A stretch of DNA of 64,000 nt, from contig NZ_OY780939.1 of assembly GCF_963675975.1 (NCBI RefSeq), positions 1,302,001 to 1,366,000 of the forward strand, given 5' to 3'. The stretch is from Halarcobacter sp. (GTDB lineage: Bacteria; Campylobacterota; Campylobacteria; Campylobacterales; Arcobacteraceae). The notes below the pieces were generated by a model. That model searched no databases. It worked only from the letters and a program-made list of their open reading frames with translations, and was not told the origin of the DNA. The position numbers were made by a program, and so were the translations under genes. Below are positions 2,862 to 13,444 of the stretch, one piece after another (position 1 is the first letter of the stretch; every line of letters starts with the position of its first letter).

Positions 2862-2884
2862 ATAAAGAGTTAATCTTTATCTAT
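2858..2884. terminator. Shared hairpin between convergent genes
   Basis: A perfect 11-bp inverted repeat (ATAGATAAAGA / TCTTTATCTAT, loop GTTAA). It contains the stop codons of both converging genes: TAG of the DUF302 gene at 2859-2861 and TAA of the OlsF-like gene (complement of 2870-2872) in the loop. A TTTTT run follows at 2888 on the + strand. Bidirectional terminator by position and structure. Confidence 0.6.
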
Positions 2885-4582
2885 ATATCTTTTTCTAGCA
2901 CTATTTTTTATTTTTTCAACTTCGACTAAAATAAATCCATCAACACAATTTGAAAAATCTGGGTCAACATTAAAAGCTAGAAACTTAACTCCACCATCTT
3001 CGCAAATATCCGAGTATTGTTTAAATAGAGTTGGTACAGTAACTCCCATACTATTTAGAGTAGATTTTAAAGTTTTAAAATCTTTCTTTTTATCATCAAG
3101 TGTAAACACATCTTTTAAATCTTGAATATGACAAGAGTATTGATATGGTAATTTTGCCTCAATAAGTATTTCTTTACTTGAAAAATAGTGACTATAATGA
3201 AATATCATCATATCCTTAGCAAGTGAAGGAAATGTTCCAGATATAGAAACAGGACCAAACATATATTTGATATGAGGATGGGTTTTTAAATATGCACCAA
3301 TTCCATACCATAAATAATCTAAGGCTCTAGTCCCCCAATATTTTGGTTGAACAAAACTTCGACCTAATTCTATAGAATCTTCTAAATATGGATTAAAGTT
3401 TTGATTGTATTTAAATAGAGTATTTGAATAAAACCCTTTTTTCCCAATATTACCATTTATAAAGTTTCCATTTCCAATTCTATATGAGCCTACTATCTCT
3501 AAATCATTCTCATCCCAAAGTACAATATGTTGGTAGTAAATATCATATTTATCAGTATCTCTTTTTTGATTTATACCTTCACCAACTTTCCTAAAACTTA
3601 ATTCTCTTAGCCTTCCTAACTCTTTTAATACCACAGAATCATCTTCATAATCATAAAGATATATTTTTTTACCATCTGCAGTTTCCCCTAAAAGTTTAGA
3701 TTTTTTTAATTCTTTTAAAATATCATTTTTCTTTTGTGGATGAGCAATTGCTTTTTGGGTTACAAAATAAGACTTTTTACCTTTTTTCAAAGCATATACA
3801 TGTTTTTTGTAAAGGCTTACAATAACCTTTTTATCTAAACCTCGTGGTTTGATATTTTCATTTGGAATTATTTCTCCAATTTTTATATTGATATTTGTTG
3901 ATTTTTTTCTAAACATCTCATTTGATAATAAAAGTGTAGAAAATGTTTTATTTATTAAAGACATTGTATAAAATGCTTTTGAGTTTTTTCCTCCAATAAA
4001 TATAGGTAGTATTGGAGCATTTGAATTCATTGCAAAGTTTATAAAACCTTTATTCCAAGATGGATCTTTAACACCATTTGCACTTGCACGACTAACTTCT
4101 CCTGCTGGGAAAATTATAATAGCACTTTCATCATTCAGCGCTTCATAAACCTTTTGAATATCTTTTTTAGATTGTCTCATTTTATAATTATCAATAGGGA
4201 TAAATAAAGGTTTTAAGGCATCTATCCCTACAAGAAAATCATTAGCAACAATTTTTACATCAGTTCTTACTGTACTAATAAGTTTTAAAAGGGAAAGTGC
4301 ATCTAATGCACCTAAAGGATGGTTAGCAATAATTACAACTTTCCCTGAAGCTGGTATATTTTGAATATCATTACTTGAAACTGTATAATCAAACTCAAAA
4401 TAGTCTAATACTGCATCTACAAACTCAAACCCTTTTAAATGTGAATTTTTTTCTAAAAATTCGTTTATTGAGTTTTCATGAATTACTTTTTTTGCAATCT
4501 TTATTAAGGATTTGCTTAAAAAGTTAGGTTTTTTTGCAACCTTCGGAAACTTTTTTTCAATCTCTTTTTGCACATCTATCAT
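2870..4582 (-). CDS. olsF: OlsF-like bifunctional ornithine-lipid synthase (PlsC + N-acyltransferase domains)
   Basis: A 570-residue two-domain acyltransferase. Residues ~60-270 form a PlsC/LPLAT domain with NHPLGALD (His88-X5-Asp94) and the FPAGEVSR block. Residues ~310-520 resemble the GNAT-like OlsB/hemolysin-type N-acyltransferase (ELGRSFVQPKYWG). In the OlsF family the C-terminal domain makes lyso-ornithine lipid and the N-terminal domain adds the second acyl chain, giving a phosphorus-free membrane lipid. Its own Pho-box promoter lies just upstream and the neighbours are phosphate-scavenging genes, which fits lipid replacement under phosphate starvation. A general lysophospholipid acyltransferase is the alternative. 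The specific role is inferred; the domains are clear. Confidence 0.72.
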   Translation of the reverse strand: MIDVQKEIEKKFPKVAKKPNFLSKSLIKIAKKVIHENSINEFLEKNSHLKGFEFVDAVLDYFEFDYTVSSNDIQNIPASGKVVIIANHPLGALDALSLLKLISTVRTDVKIVANDFLVGIDALKPLFIPIDNYKMRQSKKDIQKVYEALNDESAIIIFPAGEVSRASANGVKDPSWNKGFINFAMNSNAPILPIFIGGKNSKAFYTMSLINKTFSTLLLSNEMFRKKSTNINIKIGEIIPNENIKPRGLDKKVIVSLYKKHVYALKKGKKSYFVTQKAIAHPQKKNDILKELKKSKLLGETADGKKIYLYDYEDDSVVLKELGRLRELSFRKVGEGINQKRDTDKYDIYYQHIVLWDENDLEIVGSYRIGNGNFINGNIGKKGFYSNTLFKYNQNFNPYLEDSIELGRSFVQPKYWGTRALDYLWYGIGAYLKTHPHIKYMFGPVSISGTFPSLAKDMMIFHYSHYFSSKEILIEAKLPYQYSCHIQDLKDVFTLDDKKKDFKTLKSTLNSMGVTVPTLFKQYSDICEDGGVKFLAFNVDPDFSNCVDGFILVEVEKIKNSARKRYIDKD

Positions 4583-4602
4583 ATTTTCTCCTTAAACTTG
4601 AA

Positions 4603-4635
4603 ATTTTAAGAAAAATGAATTACAAAAAAGTTACA
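4603..4635 (-). promoter_or_regulatory. Pho-box-like promoter of the OlsF-like gene
   Basis: Read on the minus strand: TGTAACT-TTTT-TGTAATT (4635-4618), a 7-4-7 direct repeat, then 9 nt and a -10 hexamer TAAAAT (4608-4603). The start codon is at 4582. The layout matches a PhoB-type site replacing a -35 box and recurs three times upstream of phosphate genes in this window. Confidence 0.72.
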
Positions 4636-4654
4636 GTTATTTATAATATAAATG

Positions 4655-6400
4655 CTATTCATATTTTACTGCTATTATTCCTGTACTAGAACCTATGTCT
4701 TTTATTTCTTTTTCTACATTCTGTACTGGTTTAACATGAGCATCTCTCCCATAAATAAAACTTTGTTCATCAACAATCACTTTATAAGCTTTATTTAGTT
4801 CTAAAGCTCTTTTTGTACTTGGATATAATAAATATGCTATATTTTCTCTCATAATCTGAACTTGGTCATTAAGTAGATTCCCTTCATTATCAAAGAATTT
4901 TTCCATAATCTCACTATTGTTTCTAAATTCATCTCCAGCTTGATTTTGTTCTAGATAAAGTGTATATTCATATCTATCATCTGGTGTTTTAGGTTCTAAT
5001 ATACCTTTTAAGCCATTCGTATCTTGTGACCAATGGTACCATCCTTTTTGAAAATGTGCATTATCAAATTTTCTTTGAAAAACAAAAGTACTATCTGTTG
5101 TTGCTCCAATACCTGAGTGGCAACCAATACAATATTGTGTTTCTTCATAGTTTTGTGGTCTTAATTCTCCATTCTCATCTTCAATAAAGCCTTGATATAC
5201 CCATCCAAGTCCTGTAAGAAGTCCCTCTTCTGTATTACCTTGGATTGTTCTAATTCTATCAGGAAAATCGTTTTTATCTTTTACTTCTGCAGAAGTGGCA
5301 TTTTCCATTTCCCAATCTCCAAGCCAAGTATATTTTTTACCATATCTAAGCTCTTTCATTCTAGAAGCCATTTTTATAGTATCATTTGTTTTATCAATAT
5401 CAATATATCTCACTGTATGCAAAAACTCTGTATCTTTAGGATATCTTCCAGGTCCTATTAAATAAGTATTTGATTCTAAAAGTGTTTTTGCCAAACCTAC
5501 ATAACTCATAGAAAAATTATAATATTTACCTGTAGTTTCATTATAAGAATATTTATTCCAATTATAAACAATTTTTGAGGCTGTGCTTAAGGTTCCATTG
5601 TTATCTAAATCAACTTGATATAAATTTTCATCAACACTATTTTCTAAATCTATATCTTTTCTTTTTATTAATGATTCAACAATTGCAAGATTTATTTTAT
5701 ATATCTCTTTGTTAAATACTCCATTTGAGTCTTGTTGAAACTCTTTTGCCAATCTTATTAGAACATCATCTGTACTACCATTTGTTGGCCAAAATGTTCC
5801 TAAAAATGGGTAATAAGCAAATGCTCTCCACCCTGTATACTCTCCATTTGGTTTTTTATCAAATCCTTCATTATCAAAATTGAAATAACAATCAGGAGTG
5901 TATCCATCCCATTTACCATTTTCATTTACATCCCAATTTGAAGGTATATTATTTAATTTATTTGCCAAAATCAAATTATTGTTAGAATCTTTATAGTTAT
6001 TTTCTCTAATATAATTTAAAATCTTTTCATCACTTATATTATTTACAGCTTGAGTTCTATCTTTAAATAGATTTGTAAATCTATTAACTTTTGTATAGTC
6101 TCCAAAATCAAGGACTTCTTGTAATTCAAAGTCGTTAATATAATTTGGTGTTTCCGAATTGATATGACATGTAAAACATGGATTATGAATATTATTGTTA
6201 TCATCCGTAGTTTTGGTATAACACTGACTTGTTACATAAGCTGCTCTATTGTTTATTGAATCTGTTGCTTTAAAATCTATATCTAAAACTTGTTTGTTAT
6301 AAGATATCCCTGATGAAGAACTACCTCCTCCACAACCAATTAGTGCAAATATTGATACTATTCCTAAAACCGACATTCCATAAAAAACTTTTTTTTCCAT
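4655..6400 (-). CDS. Dihaem cytochrome c-like lipoprotein
   Basis: A 581-residue exported lipoprotein: the signal peptide ends in a lipobox (ALIGC, Cys23), followed by a Gly/Ser linker. Two covalent haem-binding motifs are visible, CFTCH (residues 75-79) and CIGCH (424-428), about 350 residues apart. The intervening sequence, rich in Asp, Asn and aromatic residues, matches no family I can name. It should be an envelope electron carrier or a haem enzyme. It lies on the same strand between phoX and the OlsF-like gene, but a hairpin separates it from phoX and no Pho box was found upstream. Confidence 0.7.
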   Translation of the reverse strand: MEKKVFYGMSVLGIVSIFALIGCGGGSSSSGISYNKQVLDIDFKATDSINNRAAYVTSQCYTKTTDDNNNIHNPCFTCHINSETPNYINDFELQEVLDFGDYTKVNRFTNLFKDRTQAVNNISDEKILNYIRENNYKDSNNNLILANKLNNIPSNWDVNENGKWDGYTPDCYFNFDNEGFDKKPNGEYTGWRAFAYYPFLGTFWPTNGSTDDVLIRLAKEFQQDSNGVFNKEIYKINLAIVESLIKRKDIDLENSVDENLYQVDLDNNGTLSTASKIVYNWNKYSYNETTGKYYNFSMSYVGLAKTLLESNTYLIGPGRYPKDTEFLHTVRYIDIDKTNDTIKMASRMKELRYGKKYTWLGDWEMENATSAEVKDKNDFPDRIRTIQGNTEEGLLTGLGWVYQGFIEDENGELRPQNYEETQYCIGCHSGIGATTDSTFVFQRKFDNAHFQKGWYHWSQDTNGLKGILEPKTPDDRYEYTLYLEQNQAGDEFRNNSEIMEKFFDNEGNLLNDQVQIMRENIAYLLYPSTKRALELNKAYKVIVDEQSFIYGRDAHVKPVQNVEKEIKDIGSSTGIIAVKYE

Positions 6401-6418
6401 AATTAACCTTATTTTTAT

Positions 6419-6438
6419 AAATAGATTCTAATCTATTT
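6419..6438. promoter_or_regulatory. 20-bp palindrome upstream of the cytochrome lipoprotein gene
   Basis: AAATAGATT-CT-AATCTATTT is a perfect 9-bp inverted repeat with a 2-bp centre, starting 19 bp before the start codon of the dihaem lipoprotein gene. A dimeric regulator could bind it, or it may be part of an mRNA leader hairpin. No regulator can be named. Confidence 0.4.
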
Positions 6439-6454
6439 TTTAGTTCACAATCTA

Positions 6455-6484
6455 TTTATAAAAGGGAATAAACCCTTTTATAAA
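6455..6484 (-). terminator. phoX terminator hairpin
   Basis: A perfect 12-bp inverted repeat, TTTATAAAAGGG / CCCTTTTATAAA with a 6-nt loop, immediately after the phoX stop codon. It separates the phoX transcript from the downstream cytochrome gene. Confidence 0.7.
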
Positions 6485-6493
6485 TATTTAATA

Positions 6494-8437
6494 TTATCTA
6501 GCTGTGAAGTTGAATGGTCCAACAACACCAAATGATGATTCTTTATTAGTTGCAGATTCAACTAATGAATAATCAGGATCACTACTACTTGTTTCACCAA
6601 ATGGGTGTTGAGTAACAGCAGTTAAGTAACCAAATCCATTAATATCTTTATACCAATATGGAGATGTAGTTTCAGAACCATATGGAGTTGATAAAATTCT
6701 TGTCATTTTCCCATTTACAACATCATATGCCCAAATAAAGTCATTTGGATGTCTATCTGTATCCTCACCAATTACAAGTAAGTTTTCACCTTTTAAATAA
6801 GTGATATTATCAGGATGTGCAATTGAGTCAGGAGAACATTCATAAGCTTCATAATCTGAACCAGCATCATAAGAAGATGCTTCACCTCTTAATACTCCAT
6901 ACATATTTTTTACAACATATTCACTATTAATAGCATCATTTGTACTATCAACGGCAGTTTCACTTGCATCATAAATATCAAGACCATAAACTGCACCACA
7001 TTTATTTTCAGTTAATCTAATATCATTATTTCCACCAGTATCATTAGAACTTCCATCTAACATACCTTTTCTAATCTCACTCATAGCTACATAAAGTTTA
7101 TTGTGGTCAGGATTATAAGTAATACCTTCCTCTTTTCTAAACTCAGTAGTTGCACCCAACATTGCAGAGTATCTTCTAGTTTCTAAAAATGCCGCTGCTT
7201 TTTCTTGTCCAGCTTTTACAGCTAAACATTCTAATCCCCATGAAGTATTGATTCTTGTATAACCTTGTGCACAGGTATTATCATCAGCAGGATCAACAGC
7301 ATCAAAAATATCACTAAACTCTATACCTGCATCTAAAATTGACTTAATTTCAGCATCTGTGGCACTTCCCATTTTAATCCATGTCAAGTCAGCAGAACCC
7401 GCTTCTTCATCAGAAGTTTGATTCCATTTTGCTGCATATAAAGAACCAGCACTTAAATCACCAGCTGTATTAGCTATATACATATAAAAACCAACATTTG
7501 TCCCATCATCCGAAAGATATGCAGTTTTTTCATCAGGCATTACATATGCAAGCTCCCATGCAGCTCTACCCATAGAAAAGTGTTTTGTATATGTATAAGT
7601 AGGAGTTGAAGATGAAGCATTTACAGATACTTCAGGAATAAATCCATAATAATAAGGACTAGTTTTAGTATAATCCCCATTCCAGTAATATTTTAAGTTT
7701 TGATTAAAGTAATCACCCTCACCATTACCAGCATCAAAATAACCTAAATTTGCATCATAAGAAGCAGCAGTAAATGCTCTTGCATTAGGCTCATATTCTT
7801 CAGAACCTAAGTGTGTACCCCAAGGTGTAACCATACCAGCACAGTGTACCCATCCACCAAAACCAGATTTTTGACTAATATATTGCATAGAGTTATCAAC
7901 AACAGATAATGCCCCTGTTGATGGATCTTGAGATAACTCGTACCCATACATCGCTCCATTTGCACATTCAAATTGAGAAACTGCAAAGATTCTTCCATTG
8001 TTTGTTAAAATTGATGTGTGGTCTAAACCTGAACCACCAATATTTCCATTTGCTCCATCACAAATGATAAGATTTCCATCATTATCTGTAACTGTTGCAT
8101 CATTATAATCTTTTACAGCTCCAAATGTTTGACCATTATTAGTAGTTTTAGCGCTAATTAATTTTGTAAATCCAATTGCACTTGTACTACCTTGACCATT
8201 ATCATATGTAACACTATTTGTTGCAATAATTGATGATTTTTCTTCATCTGTTAAAGGAGCAGGAATCTGTGATAAAACAACTTTTTTTGCAATCCCAGAT
8301 TCTCTAACAAGAGAGTTTGAAGAAGGAGTATCAATAATTGTATTAAAAATACCATTATCATCACTACCTCCACAACCAACAAGTGCTAATGAAGCAACCA
8401 TTGAAGCTACAGCTATACTTATATATGATTTTCTCAT
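6494..8437 (-). CDS. phoX: PhoX-family (DUF839) alkaline phosphatase, lipoprotein form
   Basis: A 647-residue PhoX/DUF839 protein. Characteristic blocks are GGSGLDHTSIL, WVHCAGMVTPWGTHLGSEEY and the late segment SPDSIAHPDNITYL, which in the family help bind the iron-calcium cofactor. These enzymes release phosphate from phosphomonoesters outside the cytoplasm. The signal peptide ends in a lipobox (LALVGC) followed by GGSDD, and no twin-arginine motif is present, whereas typical PhoX is Tat-exported. A Pho-box promoter lies 74 bp upstream of the ATG and a hairpin follows the stop. Family assignment is firm; activity is inferred. Confidence 0.85.
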   Translation of the reverse strand: MRKSYISIAVASMVASLALVGCGGSDDNGIFNTIIDTPSSNSLVRESGIAKKVVLSQIPAPLTDEEKSSIIATNSVTYDNGQGSTSAIGFTKLISAKTTNNGQTFGAVKDYNDATVTDNDGNLIICDGANGNIGGSGLDHTSILTNNGRIFAVSQFECANGAMYGYELSQDPSTGALSVVDNSMQYISQKSGFGGWVHCAGMVTPWGTHLGSEEYEPNARAFTAASYDANLGYFDAGNGEGDYFNQNLKYYWNGDYTKTSPYYYGFIPEVSVNASSSTPTYTYTKHFSMGRAAWELAYVMPDEKTAYLSDDGTNVGFYMYIANTAGDLSAGSLYAAKWNQTSDEEAGSADLTWIKMGSATDAEIKSILDAGIEFSDIFDAVDPADDNTCAQGYTRINTSWGLECLAVKAGQEKAAAFLETRRYSAMLGATTEFRKEEGITYNPDHNKLYVAMSEIRKGMLDGSSNDTGGNNDIRLTENKCGAVYGLDIYDASETAVDSTNDAINSEYVVKNMYGVLRGEASSYDAGSDYEAYECSPDSIAHPDNITYLKGENLLVIGEDTDRHPNDFIWAYDVVNGKMTRILSTPYGSETTSPYWYKDINGFGYLTAVTQHPFGETSSSDPDYSLVESATNKESSFGVVGPFNFTAR

Positions 8438-8495
8438 ACTTTTATTCCTTATTTTTAGTTTAATTTTTACTCTACAATGCTATTGAGTAGACGTA

Positions 8496-8528
8496 AATAT
8501 AAAACTTTTAAATTACAATTAAGTTACA
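8496..8528 (-). promoter_or_regulatory. Pho-box-like promoter of phoX
   Basis: Minus strand: TGTAACT-TAAT-TGTAATT (8528-8511), a 9-nt gap, then -10 hexamer TATATT (8501-8496). The architecture is the same as at the OlsF-like gene. Confidence 0.75.
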
Positions 8529-8592
8529 TATTAGATTTATTAATTTAAGTACACTTTAATAATACAAACACTTTGATAGCTATATGAAATAA

Positions 8593-8625
8593 TGTTATTA
8601 ATTTGTAACTTTTACTAGTTAAGAT
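8593..8625 (+). promoter_or_regulatory. Pho-box-like promoter of the phytase-like lipoprotein gene
   Basis: TGTTATT-AATT-TGTAACT (8593-8610), a 9-nt gap, then TAAGAT (8620-8625) as -10. It lies 32 bp before the ATG at 8657 and is divergent from the phoX promoter. Confidence 0.7.
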
Positions 8626-8656
8626 TCCTGATTTTAGTAAAAAGTAAGGAATATAA

Positions 8657-11494
8657 ATGAATAAAAAAGCTTGGTTGAGTTTAACGGTTGCAAGTGCAGT
8701 TTTATCTGTCTCTTTAGTAGGATGTGGTAGTTCATCTAATGATAACTATAGTGTAGGTACTGTAGTAAAAAAATTTTTTAATGGTGGAGCAATATTACCA
8801 TATGAAGAGATTGGTGAAGAGTTAGATAATGGTGCCAAAGATGGTGAAAAGTTTTTTGTAAGAAATGGTGGATATGGCTCAGCAGCAGCAGCTCATCCTA
8901 CAAATGAAAAACAATTTTATGCATTAACAGATAGAGGTCCAAATGCAACATATACAGGGGATGATGGAAAAGGGAAAATGTTTCCTGTACCAGATTATGT
9001 ACCAAGAATTGGACTTTTTGAAATTCAAGCAAACAATTCAGTTAAAAAAATAAAAGATATACTTCTAAAAAGACCTGATGGAACTGAAATTTCAGGATTA
9101 CCAAATACTTCTGCTTTAGGAGGAACTGGTGAAACTCCATATGATGCTGACGGAAATACAATAAAAGATGAAAATGGAAATATTAAACTAGATGATTATG
9201 GTTTAGATGGGGAAGGTTTAGCTGTATTAAATGATGGAACATTTTGGATAAGTGATGAATATGGTCCTCATATGGTTCATTTTGATGCAAATGGAAAAGA
9301 GATAGAAAGAATTAACCCTTTTGTACAAGATGATAGAAATACTTTTACTCTGCCAGCAGAATTTGCTTACAGAAGAGCAAATAGAGGTATGGAAGGTTTA
9401 ACTATAACTCCTGATCAAAAAACTCTTGTAGGGATTATGCAGTCAACAATGGATTTATCATCTTCTGATGTAAGATCTCAAACTATTACTAGGATTGTTA
9501 CAGTAGATGTTGAAACAGGAGCAACAAAACAATATCTTTATAAACAAGAAAAAAATGCAAATTCTAATTCAGAAATTGTTGCATTAAGTAATGATGAATT
9601 TTTAATTATTGAAAGGGATGGTAGCTTCTTAAAAGATACTACTGACTTACAAAAACATGTATATAAAATTAGTTTATCTTCTGGTACTGAATTAGAAGGT
9701 TTATCTTTAGAAGATAATATGATACAAGATGAGTCAATTGGATTAACAATTGATGGATTAACATTAGAGCAAGTTACATTAAATGGCGGATGGGAAGCTT
9801 TAGCTTCATATGGTATTTATCCAGTATCAAAACAACTAGTAGTAGATATGGTACAAGAAGTAGATTATCCTCATGATAAAATGGAAGGTTTAATTGTATT
9901 TAAAAATGGTGATTTAGGTATTGTAAATGATGATGATTTTGCTACATGGTCAAGCTCAGGTGTATTAGAACAAAAGTATTTAGATTCTGATATGAAGATT
10001 GTAGATGGGAATACTTTATATGTTGTAAAAAATCCTAACTTATCTTCAAAACTTGAAAAAGTTGGTTCATATAATACGAATAAAGAAGCAGGAAGTGAAA
10101 TTGTTGCATATGATAAAGGTTCAAAAAGAATGTTTATAACTAATGGTGCAGATAATAAGATTGATATTATTAATATTTCAGATGTGACATCTGCTACTTT
10201 AGTTTCAAGTATTGATTTAAACTCTTATGGCACAGGTGTAAATTCTGTTTCTGCCCATAATGGTAAAATTGCAGTTGCAGTTGAAACTAAATCAACAGAT
10301 GGATTAAGAACAAATAGTAAAGGGAATGTAGTATTTTTTGATATTGATGGAAACCACTTACATACTGTTCAAGTTGGATATCTACCAGATATGGTTACAT
10401 TTAATGAAGATGGTTCAAGAGTAATTGTAGCAAATGAAGGTGAGCCAAATGGTGATTATAGTGTAGACCCTGAAGGAACAGTTGGAGTTATTAATACATC
10501 TGATTATTCATATACTGATATTGCTTTAAATATTGCTACAACTGCTGCAAATGATGGTACAGTTGTTAGACTTGGTGGAACTCCAAGTAATTCTCAAATA
10601 AAAGATTTAGAGCCTGAATATGTTACAGTTTCAGGAAACTATGCATATATTACATTACAAGAAAATAATGCTTTAGCAAAAGTGGATTTAACTACAAACA
10701 CTTTATCTTATATCAAATCATTTGGTGCAAAAGACTATTCAAGCCAAAATACTATTGATATTGAAGAAAATGGTATTATTGAAATGAAAAATTATCCAGA
10801 ACTTTTTGGTTTATATCAGCCAGATTCAATAGCTTCATATACTTATAATGGTCAAATATACTTAGTAACTGCAAATGAAGGTGATGGAAGAGAATATCCT
10901 GTTGATGATGTAAATGATAGTTTAGAAAAAGGAGATGCTTTAACAGACGAAAGCAAAATCTCAAAACTTACACTTGATTCTTCTATCGAAGCTGCATATG
11001 AAAATGAAAATGACTTAAAAGTTATGGTTGATTTAGGTGATACTGACAATGATGGTGATTATGATAAATTATATACTTATGGTGCAAGAAGTTTCTCTAT
11101 TTGGGATGCAAATGGTGATTTAGTATGGGATAGTGGTGATGAGATTTCTAAAAAAATTGCAGAACTTCAACCAGCATTATTTAATCAAGATGAAGGTGAA
11201 ATGGATGGAAGAAGTGGAAATAAAGGTGGTGAACCTGAAGCATTAGCTGTAGGAACAGTTAATGGTGTAACATATGCCTTTATTGGTTTAGAAAGACAAA
11301 ATGCTATTTTAGTTTATAATATTACAAATCCATCAAATGGAATCTTTGTAGATTATATTGAAACTGGTTCAAAAGGTGATATCTCTCCTGAAGGTATGAA
11401 ATTTATTTCTGCAAGTGACTCTCCAAATGGAAAAAATCTATTATTAGTTTCTTATGAAATGAGTGGATCTACTGCAATTTATGAAATTAAATAA
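8657..11494 (+). CDS. Phytase-like esterase / choice-of-anchor I fusion lipoprotein
   Basis: A 945-residue lipoprotein (signal peptide with LVGC lipobox). Residues ~45-440 match the 'esterase-like activity of phytase' family (ALTDRGPN, DGEGLA, ISDEYGP, RGMEGLT). Residues ~470-945 are a beta-propeller of the choice-of-anchor I type (VSAHNGKIAVAVE, YLPDMVTFNEDGSRVIVANEGEPN, GGEPEALAVG), a module often found on secreted phosphatases. The probable role is hydrolysis of organic phosphate esters at the cell surface. The Pho-box promoter and the phoX and nucleotidase neighbours support this. Substrate and catalytic residues are not established. Confidence 0.78.
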   Translation: MNKKAWLSLTVASAVLSVSLVGCGSSSNDNYSVGTVVKKFFNGGAILPYEEIGEELDNGAKDGEKFFVRNGGYGSAAAAHPTNEKQFYALTDRGPNATYTGDDGKGKMFPVPDYVPRIGLFEIQANNSVKKIKDILLKRPDGTEISGLPNTSALGGTGETPYDADGNTIKDENGNIKLDDYGLDGEGLAVLNDGTFWISDEYGPHMVHFDANGKEIERINPFVQDDRNTFTLPAEFAYRRANRGMEGLTITPDQKTLVGIMQSTMDLSSSDVRSQTITRIVTVDVETGATKQYLYKQEKNANSNSEIVALSNDEFLIIERDGSFLKDTTDLQKHVYKISLSSGTELEGLSLEDNMIQDESIGLTIDGLTLEQVTLNGGWEALASYGIYPVSKQLVVDMVQEVDYPHDKMEGLIVFKNGDLGIVNDDDFATWSSSGVLEQKYLDSDMKIVDGNTLYVVKNPNLSSKLEKVGSYNTNKEAGSEIVAYDKGSKRMFITNGADNKIDIINISDVTSATLVSSIDLNSYGTGVNSVSAHNGKIAVAVETKSTDGLRTNSKGNVVFFDIDGNHLHTVQVGYLPDMVTFNEDGSRVIVANEGEPNGDYSVDPEGTVGVINTSDYSYTDIALNIATTAANDGTVVRLGGTPSNSQIKDLEPEYVTVSGNYAYITLQENNALAKVDLTTNTLSYIKSFGAKDYSSQNTIDIEENGIIEMKNYPELFGLYQPDSIASYTYNGQIYLVTANEGDGREYPVDDVNDSLEKGDALTDESKISKLTLDSSIEAAYENENDLKVMVDLGDTDNDGDYDKLYTYGARSFSIWDANGDLVWDSGDEISKKIAELQPALFNQDEGEMDGRSGNKGGEPEALAVGTVNGVTYAFIGLERQNAILVYNITNPSNGIFVDYIETGSKGDISPEGMKFISASDSPNGKNLLLVSYEMSGSTAIYEIK

Positions 11495-11498
11495 ATCT

Positions 11499-11524
11499 AA
11501 TAAAGGGAAACTCTTCCCTTTATT
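11499..11524 (+). terminator. Hairpin after the phytase-like gene
   Basis: AATAAAGGGAA / TTCCCTTTATT, an 11-bp perfect stem with loop ACTC, starting 5 bp after the stop codon. It has little of a T tract, so termination strength is uncertain. Confidence 0.6.
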
Positions 11525-11573
11525 AAGTGAAAATAAAAATTACTACTAGCCTACAATAATCAATATACTAACT

Positions 11574-11606
11574 TGTTATTATTATGTAACTTTTAACATA
11601 TATACT
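11574..11606 (+). promoter_or_regulatory. Pho-box-like promoter of the 5'-nucleotidase gene
   Basis: TGTTATT-ATTA-TGTAACT (11574-11591), a 9-nt gap, then TATACT (11601-11606) as -10. It is nearly identical in layout to the site before the phytase-like gene. Confidence 0.75.
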
Positions 11607-11635
11607 TTGCCTTATTTTTATTAGGAGTGATATTT

Positions 11636-13444
11636 ATGAAAAAGTTTTATTTGAGTATAGCTTCACTATTTTTAGTAGGAAGCATATTTGTAGGTTGTGG
11701 AGATAGTAGTTCTTTTAATACTACTGAGGATAGTTTTAATCTATCAATTTTTCATGTAGATGATACCCATTCACACATTGAAAGTGAATCAATGACATTA
11801 GAGTTTGATGGTGTTGAAACAAATGTACCTGTTGGTGGATATGCAAGATATGTAACAAAACTAAATGAGCTTAAAAAAACAAAACCTAACTCTTTAACAC
11901 TAAATGCTGGAGATGTTTTTCAAGGTACACTTTTTTATTCATTATTTAAAGGTGAAGCTGATGCAGCTATGATGAATTTAATCTCTTGGGATGCATATTC
12001 TTTAGGGAATCATGAGTTTGATGATGGTGATGAAGGATTAAAATCATTTTTAGATATGTTAAATGATACAATCCCTGTAATATCTGCAAATGTTGTACCT
12101 CAATCAGGTAATATTTTAGAAGGTTATTGGACTCCTTATGTAATTAAAGAGATTGCAGGTGAAAAAGTAGGAATTATAGGTATAGATATTGTTGGGAAAA
12201 CTAAAAATTCATCAAATCCTAGTGATGAGATAATCTTCTTAGATGAATTAGAAACTGCACAAAATTATATAAATGAGTTAACTGATTTAGGGGTTAATAA
12301 AATAGTACTATTAACCCATCAAGGATACTCAAGTGATTTAACAATGGCAAAAGCTTTAAATGGAGTTGATGTAATAATTGGTGGTGACTCACATACATTA
12401 CAAGGTGATTTCTCATCTTTAGGCTTAGAAAGTAGTGTAAGTACTTATCCAACTGTTGAACAATCAAAAGATGGTAAAAAAGTTTGTATAGCACATGCTT
12501 GGGAATATGGACACATTCTTGGAAACGTAGATGTTCGATTTAATAAATCAGGAGATGTAATATCTTGTGGAGGAAACCCTTTACTTTTAGTAGGAAATGA
12601 GTTTACACAAGAGGATGCAAATGGTGATGATCAAGTTGTAAATGATAGTGTAAGAGCATCAATTTTAGATACAATTGCTTCAAATAAGAATATAGAAATT
12701 ACGACAGAAGATGATTACACGTTAAGTGTAGTAAAAACATATTCAGATAAAGTAGATGCTAAAAAAGCAGTTGTAATAGGAACTGCTAGTGAAAGGTTAG
12801 GACACAATAGAATACCTGGAGATGCTAGAGACGGTGTTGCTGCCTTACCTTTAGGAAGTGATATTGCACCTATTGTTGCTAAATCATTTTATGATTTAAG
12901 TAATTTAGCTGATGCTTGTATTCAAAATGCAGGTGGTGTTAGAGTTGCGATAGAAGCAGGTGAAATTACTATGGGAGACGCATATACTTTATTACCTTTT
13001 TCAAATACATTATTTGAATTACAAATGTATGGTGATGAAATAAAACAAGTATTAGAAGATGCAATAACAAATACGATTGATCCAGAAGGTTCAACTGGTT
13101 CATTCCCATATTCTTATGGTTTAAGATATGATGTTGATTTAACTGCAAGTGCAAATAATAGAATTTCAAATTTAGAGATTAAAAATAGACAAACAGGAGT
13201 TTGGTCAGAAATTAGCAACACTACTATGTATACAATTGTTACAAACTCATATACAGCAGGTGGAAAAGATGGATATCTAACTTTTAAAACTGTTCAAGAT
13301 GAAAGAGGATTGGGAGTTGATACATATTTAGATTATGCAATGAGTTTTGTTAAGTATATGGAAACTTTAACTGCAAATAATCAAACCTTAACAAAATTAC
13401 CTTCAGAAGATCATCCAATAAAAAGTTTTGTTGGGCTTGAATAA
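11636..13444 (+). CDS. 5'-nucleotidase / UshA-like metallophosphatase lipoprotein
   Basis: A 602-residue exported lipoprotein (VGC lipobox). The N-terminal metallophosphatase domain shows HVDDTHSHIE, NAGDVFQGT, LGNHEFDDG and the later THQGYSSD and GGDSH metal ligands. The C-terminal 5'-nucleotidase domain has NAGGVRVAIEAGEITMGD and the LPFSN substrate-binding block. The family dephosphorylates nucleotides outside the cytoplasm. The ATG at 11636 is chosen because AGGAG (11623-11627) lies 8 nt before it; the in-frame GTG at 11627 overlaps that ribosome site. It has its own Pho-box promoter. Confidence 0.88.
   Translation: MKKFYLSIASLFLVGSIFVGCGDSSSFNTTEDSFNLSIFHVDDTHSHIESESMTLEFDGVETNVPVGGYARYVTKLNELKKTKPNSLTLNAGDVFQGTLFYSLFKGEADAAMMNLISWDAYSLGNHEFDDGDEGLKSFLDMLNDTIPVISANVVPQSGNILEGYWTPYVIKEIAGEKVGIIGIDIVGKTKNSSNPSDEIIFLDELETAQNYINELTDLGVNKIVLLTHQGYSSDLTMAKALNGVDVIIGGDSHTLQGDFSSLGLESSVSTYPTVEQSKDGKKVCIAHAWEYGHILGNVDVRFNKSGDVISCGGNPLLLVGNEFTQEDANGDDQVVNDSVRASILDTIASNKNIEITTEDDYTLSVVKTYSDKVDAKKAVVIGTASERLGHNRIPGDARDGVAALPLGSDIAPIVAKSFYDLSNLADACIQNAGGVRVAIEAGEITMGDAYTLLPFSNTLFELQMYGDEIKQVLEDAITNTIDPEGSTGSFPYSYGLRYDVDLTASANNRISNLEIKNRQTGVWSEISNTTMYTIVTNSYTAGGKDGYLTFKTVQDERGLGVDTYLDYAMSFVKYMETLTANNQTLTKLPSEDHPIKSFVGLE

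Follow-up and report, generated by a model that had tools for sequence, protein, structure and literature searches.

The window, that is, the whole stretch of 64,000 nucleotides that was analysed, carries between positions 2870 and 13444 an island of genes and putative promoters, given here with coordinates, strand and the basis of each gene assignment.

2870 to 4582, minus strand: olsF, bifunctional ornithine lipid synthase (NCBIfam NF052615, equivalog OlsF, 832 bits against a cut-off of 620)
4603 to 4635, minus strand: olsF promoter, a Pho box (7-4-7), 9 bp and the -10 box TAAAAT; the box lies 20 nt before the olsF start
4655 to 6400, minus strand: gene behind phoX in the same orientation, its lipoprotein-like product containing two CxxCH motifs (from the sequence; weak Pfam match to Cytochrome_P460, 27.6 bits)
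6494 to 8437, minus strand: PhoX-domain, lipoprotein-like phosphatase (Pfam PF05787, E=1.5e-16)
8496 to 8528, minus strand: phoX promoter, a Pho box, 9 bp and the -10 box TATATT, 58 nt before the PhoX-domain gene
8593 to 8625, plus strand: divergent promoter of the phytase-like gene, a Pho box, 9 bp and the -10 box TAAGAT, 31 nt before the gene
8657 to 11494, plus strand: lipoprotein with phytase-like esterase and choice-of-anchor I domains (Pfam PF13449, PF22494)
11574 to 11606, plus strand: promoter of the NadN-like nucleotidase gene, a Pho box, 9 bp and the -10 box TATACT, 29 nt before the gene
11636 to 13444, plus strand: NadN-like NAD/5'-nucleotidase lipoprotein (NCBIfam TIGR01530, equivalog NadN, 476 bits against a cut-off of 436)

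Read directly in the sequence, the promoters are spelled TGTAACT-TTTT-TGTAATT-CATTTTTCT-TAAAAT before olsF (4635-4603, minus strand), TGTAACT-TAAT-TGTAATT-TAAAAGTTT-TATATT before phoX (8528-8496, minus strand), TGTTATT-AATT-TGTAACT-TTTACTAGT-TAAGAT before the phytase-like gene (8593-8625, plus strand) and TGTTATT-ATTA-TGTAACT-TTTAACATA-TATACT before the NadN-like gene (11574-11606, plus strand). The arrangement is 7-4-7-9-6 in four of four, so that the identical Pho-box architecture claimed in the preliminary description holds, as does its statement that the sites precede OlsF-like, phoX, phytase-like and 5'-nucleotidase genes: they lie 20-58 nt before the start codons, and HMM matches uphold the gene names. 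The sites at 8496-8528 and 8593-8625 share one intergenic region and point outward, and the former probably also serves the di-CxxCH gene downstream of phoX. When one mismatch was allowed, the 64-kb window held 4 matches to the pattern against 0.02 expected from shuffled windows, and none of 100 shuffles reached 4. No Rfam family was found in 4500-11700.

The island has counterparts among relatives, where the olsF, phoX-like, choice-of-anchor I and di-CxxCH genes are also clustered in six genomes (G001, G002, G005, G010, G011 and G017). The partner of the choice-of-anchor I domain is PhoX in five relatives, the phytase-like domain in the window genome and G011, and a NadN-like domain in G021, and in G049 PhoX and NadN appear, as judged by eye, to be fused. 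PhoX, phytase-like, NadN-like and choice-of-anchor I modules have thus been recombined across 6494-13444 of the window and the genomes G001, G002, G005, G010, G017, G021 and G049. The di-CxxCH protein (4655-6400, minus strand), in which the motifs are spelled CFTCH and CIGCH, has homologues in 14 of 60 genomes, with a Pho box of their own at 7 of these 14 loci, and we predict it to be a phosphate-regulated, cytochrome-like protein.

Beyond the window, the 3.27 Mb Arcobacteraceae-like genome was examined by pattern searches and in chosen stretches, rather than by a matrix scan of its entire length, and the reversed pattern in the same genome served as control. The pattern of the preliminary description gave 3 exact matches against 0 reversed, and 29 against 14 with up to two mismatches. 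A refined pattern derived from relatives (TGTAAYY-N4-TGTAAYY-N9-TANANT) gave 41 against 9 with up to two mismatches, and a third variant 19 against 0 with up to one. Whether pst, phoU or phoB genes would be hit had been left to such a search; the box does precede pstS and a pstC operon that contains phoU, phoB and phoR, and enrichment before phosphate genes extends to phn, ugp-like, phoD and ppk2 promoters. The sites outside the window, which are pattern matches with gene families assigned by HMM, include the following.

986043, minus strand: Pho box before pstS
983102, minus strand: Pho box before pstC, heading pstC-A-B-phoU-psiE-phoB-phoR
2255218, plus strand: Pho box before phnF, heading the phn/C-P lyase operon
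1897426, minus strand: Pho box before a DeoR-ugp-like operon
3190356, minus strand: Pho box before ppk2

The box stands 25-63 nt before pstS, pstC, phnF, the ugp-like operon, ppk2 and phoD; at ppk2 it coincides in part with the 3' end of the open frame ahead of it, and coding constraint may explain some of its conservation. A Pot/AEP-type ABC transporter was also among the box-bearing genes found with the pattern of the preliminary description at up to two mismatches, while the refined pattern added phoD, a PiT transporter and a divergent phosphoesterase/glycosyltransferase pair. These occurrences support the view that the island belongs to a larger predicted Pho regulon, scattered over the genome. 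Some strong-looking matches do not serve as promoters of phosphate genes: an exact one at 186488 (plus strand) recurs in relatives but lies antisense to the first codons of a peroxiredoxin (M-L-V-T) and was rejected as a coding artefact, and one at 2909924 (plus strand) has no gene downstream. Separately, we observed a Pho-type box (L035:2897-2929, plus strand) 26 nt before the gene for a methyl-accepting chemotaxis protein of 986 aa, which is a candidate receptor for phosphate taxis. Weaker boxes with two mismatches occur between gap-pfk and a GH57 gene (L168:2768-2844) and before zwf (L174:2864-2896); both places are doubtful, and a regulator of sugar metabolism may explain them.

In the divergent pair, the refined pattern places back-to-back boxes (L163:4208-4273, divergent) between genes for a PlcP-like, calcineurin-like phosphoesterase and an Agt-like glycosyltransferase of family 4/1, whose sole NCBIfam match is a glycosyl-phosphatidylglycerol synthase, far below cut-off; from family and context we infer that the two enzymes act as PlcP and Agt. 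Their -10 boxes lie only 6-7 nt before the ATG, and 6 nt for each gene at L163; the arrangement is kept in most genomes of the same genus, and this position suggests leaderless transcripts. A further Pho-type box precedes the pyruvate kinase gene (minus strand; 206789-206821 of G000, L036:6790-6822). It is conserved with variable spacers in most genomes of the genus, where it mostly reads TGTAACT-N4-TGTAAAT-N9-TATAAT, and would be an unexpected link from phosphate control to glycolysis.

To measure conservation, a matrix derived exclusively from the four window sites was applied to the regions upstream of pstS and pstC, the relatives having been collected through the similarity of their PhoB. 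The best match reached p<=0.005 against first-order Markov shuffles in 58 of 70 such regions, and in the Arcobacteraceae relatives most matches lay roughly 30 nt ahead of pstS and 65 nt ahead of pstC. A score of 10 was reached at 33 of 50 PstS/PstC frames compared with 8 of 344 other ORFs at the same loci, for which starts were called equally crudely. When the gaps were left free in the relatives, the 4/9 spacing returned in 51 of 56 matches and the gap of 4 in 55 of 56, whereas the reversed sequences gave 3 matches in total. The consensus of 54 sites is WGTAACCA-N3-TGTAAYCA-N8-TANAMT; over the window sites and relatives, the half-site is TGTAA, less frequently TGTTA. An analysis of column conservation was set aside as circular, since its rows had been located by the motif and some had caught a divergent site.

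The individual promoters of the island are conserved as well. All 15 olsF promoters of the same genus bear the box 19-24 nt before the start, and among PhoX homologues of relatives it occurs at 12 of 13 loci at p<=0.01; for phoX-like, plcP-like and agt-like promoters it is present in most orthologues, with spacers that vary. The box of the phytase-like gene is kept before the G011 homologue (91% identical) and that of the NadN-like gene in G011, G021 and G038; the NadN-like gene of G010 lies 21 nt behind the PhoX-anchor gene. Some relatives have no box before the gene concerned. Summed by hand, pattern and reversed matches number 232 and 25 in 16 genomes of the genus, 153 and 35 in 21 other genomes of the family, and 45 and 13 in the order's other families, a weak enrichment outside the family. 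In G017 and G045, which belong to two other genera, roughly 15 of 26 matches stand before phosphate-linked genes, as judged by eye from N-terminal sequences.

The genome also encodes what a Pho-box system requires, PhoB, PhoR, PhoU and Pst, with a pst-pho operon: the best listed NCBIfam matches are to the PhoB, PhoR, PhoU and PstS families, though they fall below the curated cut-offs. A PsiE-family protein is encoded between phoU and phoB (L030:9068-9475, minus strand), and most Arcobacteraceae relatives have a recognisable homologue. With the sites, their geometry, their position before phosphate genes, their conservation and these regulatory genes all visible in the DNA, we consider the four sites very probably PhoB-type activator sites, at which a PhoB dimer would replace the -35 box, within a genome-wide Pho regulon. 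The binding by PhoB, the activation and the induction at low phosphate are predictions from sequence. Many members of the OmpR/PhoB family bind 7-4-7 direct repeats (PMC4832192), and Campylobacter jejuni, of the same phylum, controls its phosphate regulon by PhosSR (PMC9449129), so that a different regulator of this family, for example a PhosR-like one, might bind the sites while PhoB regulates something else; this is improbable, for PhoB and PhoR are encoded in the pst-phoU operon whose own pstC promoter bears the box, and phoB adjoins pst-phoU in most Arcobacteraceae relatives. That ordinary sigma70 promoters carry TGTAA-like repeats by chance in AT-rich intergenic DNA is scarcely credible: the genome and TGTAA itself are AT-rich and the reversed controls gave some matches, but the window count far exceeds its shuffled expectation, and across many genomes the orthologous promoters of separate genes keep the geometry.

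If the sites are indeed bound by PhoB, phosphate scarcity would lead PhoR to phosphorylate it, a tandem PhoB dimer would occupy the two 7-mers, 11 bp apart, in place of the -35 box, and the bound protein would recruit sigma70 RNA polymerase to the -10 box 9 bp downstream. The island would then make phosphorus-free ornithine lipid via OlsF and the exported PhoX, phytase-like and NadN-like phosphatases, in a regulon that would also include pst-phoU-phoB-phoR, phn, ugp-like, phoD and ppk2. A prediction follows that, once phosphate is exhausted, phospholipids would be replaced by ornithine lipids and glycolipids. A wider proposal, for and against which we find ourselves evenly divided, is that the family's Pho regulon reaches central carbon metabolism, through pyruvate kinase, and redox metabolism, through the di-CxxCH lipoprotein, with leaderless paired-box transcripts for lipid remodelling and a swapping of phosphatase modules.

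A literature search, with most subscription papers outside its scope, found no description of a PhoB box in Campylobacterota or Epsilonproteobacteria, and the Arcobacteraceae PhoB-type box, classical in layout with letters of its own, is apparently undescribed for the group. It yields a Pho-box matrix that can be put to the test in free-living Campylobacterota, a field in which C. jejuni PhosSR was the model studied, and it marks genes of unknown role as candidate phosphate-regulated ones. The 2006 paper on C. jejuni PhosR speaks of a non-classical system in its title. PhosSR is said to have a different recognition sequence and no autoregulation. The two systems are alike in that PhosS/PhosR is also a two-component system that controls pst and phoX under phosphate limitation (PMC3197622, PMC9449129).

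The preliminary description had compared the sites with the 7-4-7 sites that replace a -35 box in Escherichia coli, where phoA (TGTCATA-AAGT-TGTCACG-9-TATAGT) has a geometry identical to that of the window sites: two 7-mers separated by 4 bp repeat directly every 11 bp, and in the register used here 9 bp lead to the -10 box. The predicted targets pst, phn, ugp and alkaline phosphatases are shared with the E. coli PhoB/PhoR regulon (phoA, pstS, ugpB, phnC), whereas olsF, the plcP-like/agt-like pair, ppk2, pyruvate kinase and the di-CxxCH lipoprotein are unlike it. The Pho box consensus differs among species (PMC4415409), and the half-site here is TGTAAC/T in place of the TGTCA of E. coli. The PhoB recognition helix, TVDVH in E. 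coli, is TVNVA in all 79 PhoB sequences of relatives with a readable helix. Arcobacteraceae retain the classical promoter geometry of E. coli, with changes in both the letters of the box and the PhoB helix, and we hypothesize a causal link between the helix change and the half-site change from C to A. The effector domains of E. coli PhoB lie head to tail on the direct repeats and contact RNA polymerase (PMC4415409, PMC3348028), and by analogy the PhoB of this lineage would do the same. Of the residues tied to that contact in E. coli (W184, G185, V190 and D192; PMC3348028), alignment finds only W184 kept in the lineage, and since the other three differ, the surface that makes contact may have diverged along with the sigma factor of the lineage. 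Phosphate limitation in Proteobacteria leads to phosphorus-free ornithine lipids and PlcP-dependent glycolipids (PMC4796936, PMC8528852, PMC9239053); the lipid genes here are similar to those of this PlcP/Agt and ornithine-lipid remodelling, but here, unlike in Proteobacteria, it is the Campylobacterota-type box that precedes olsF and the divergent pair of metallophosphoesterase and glycosyltransferase genes.
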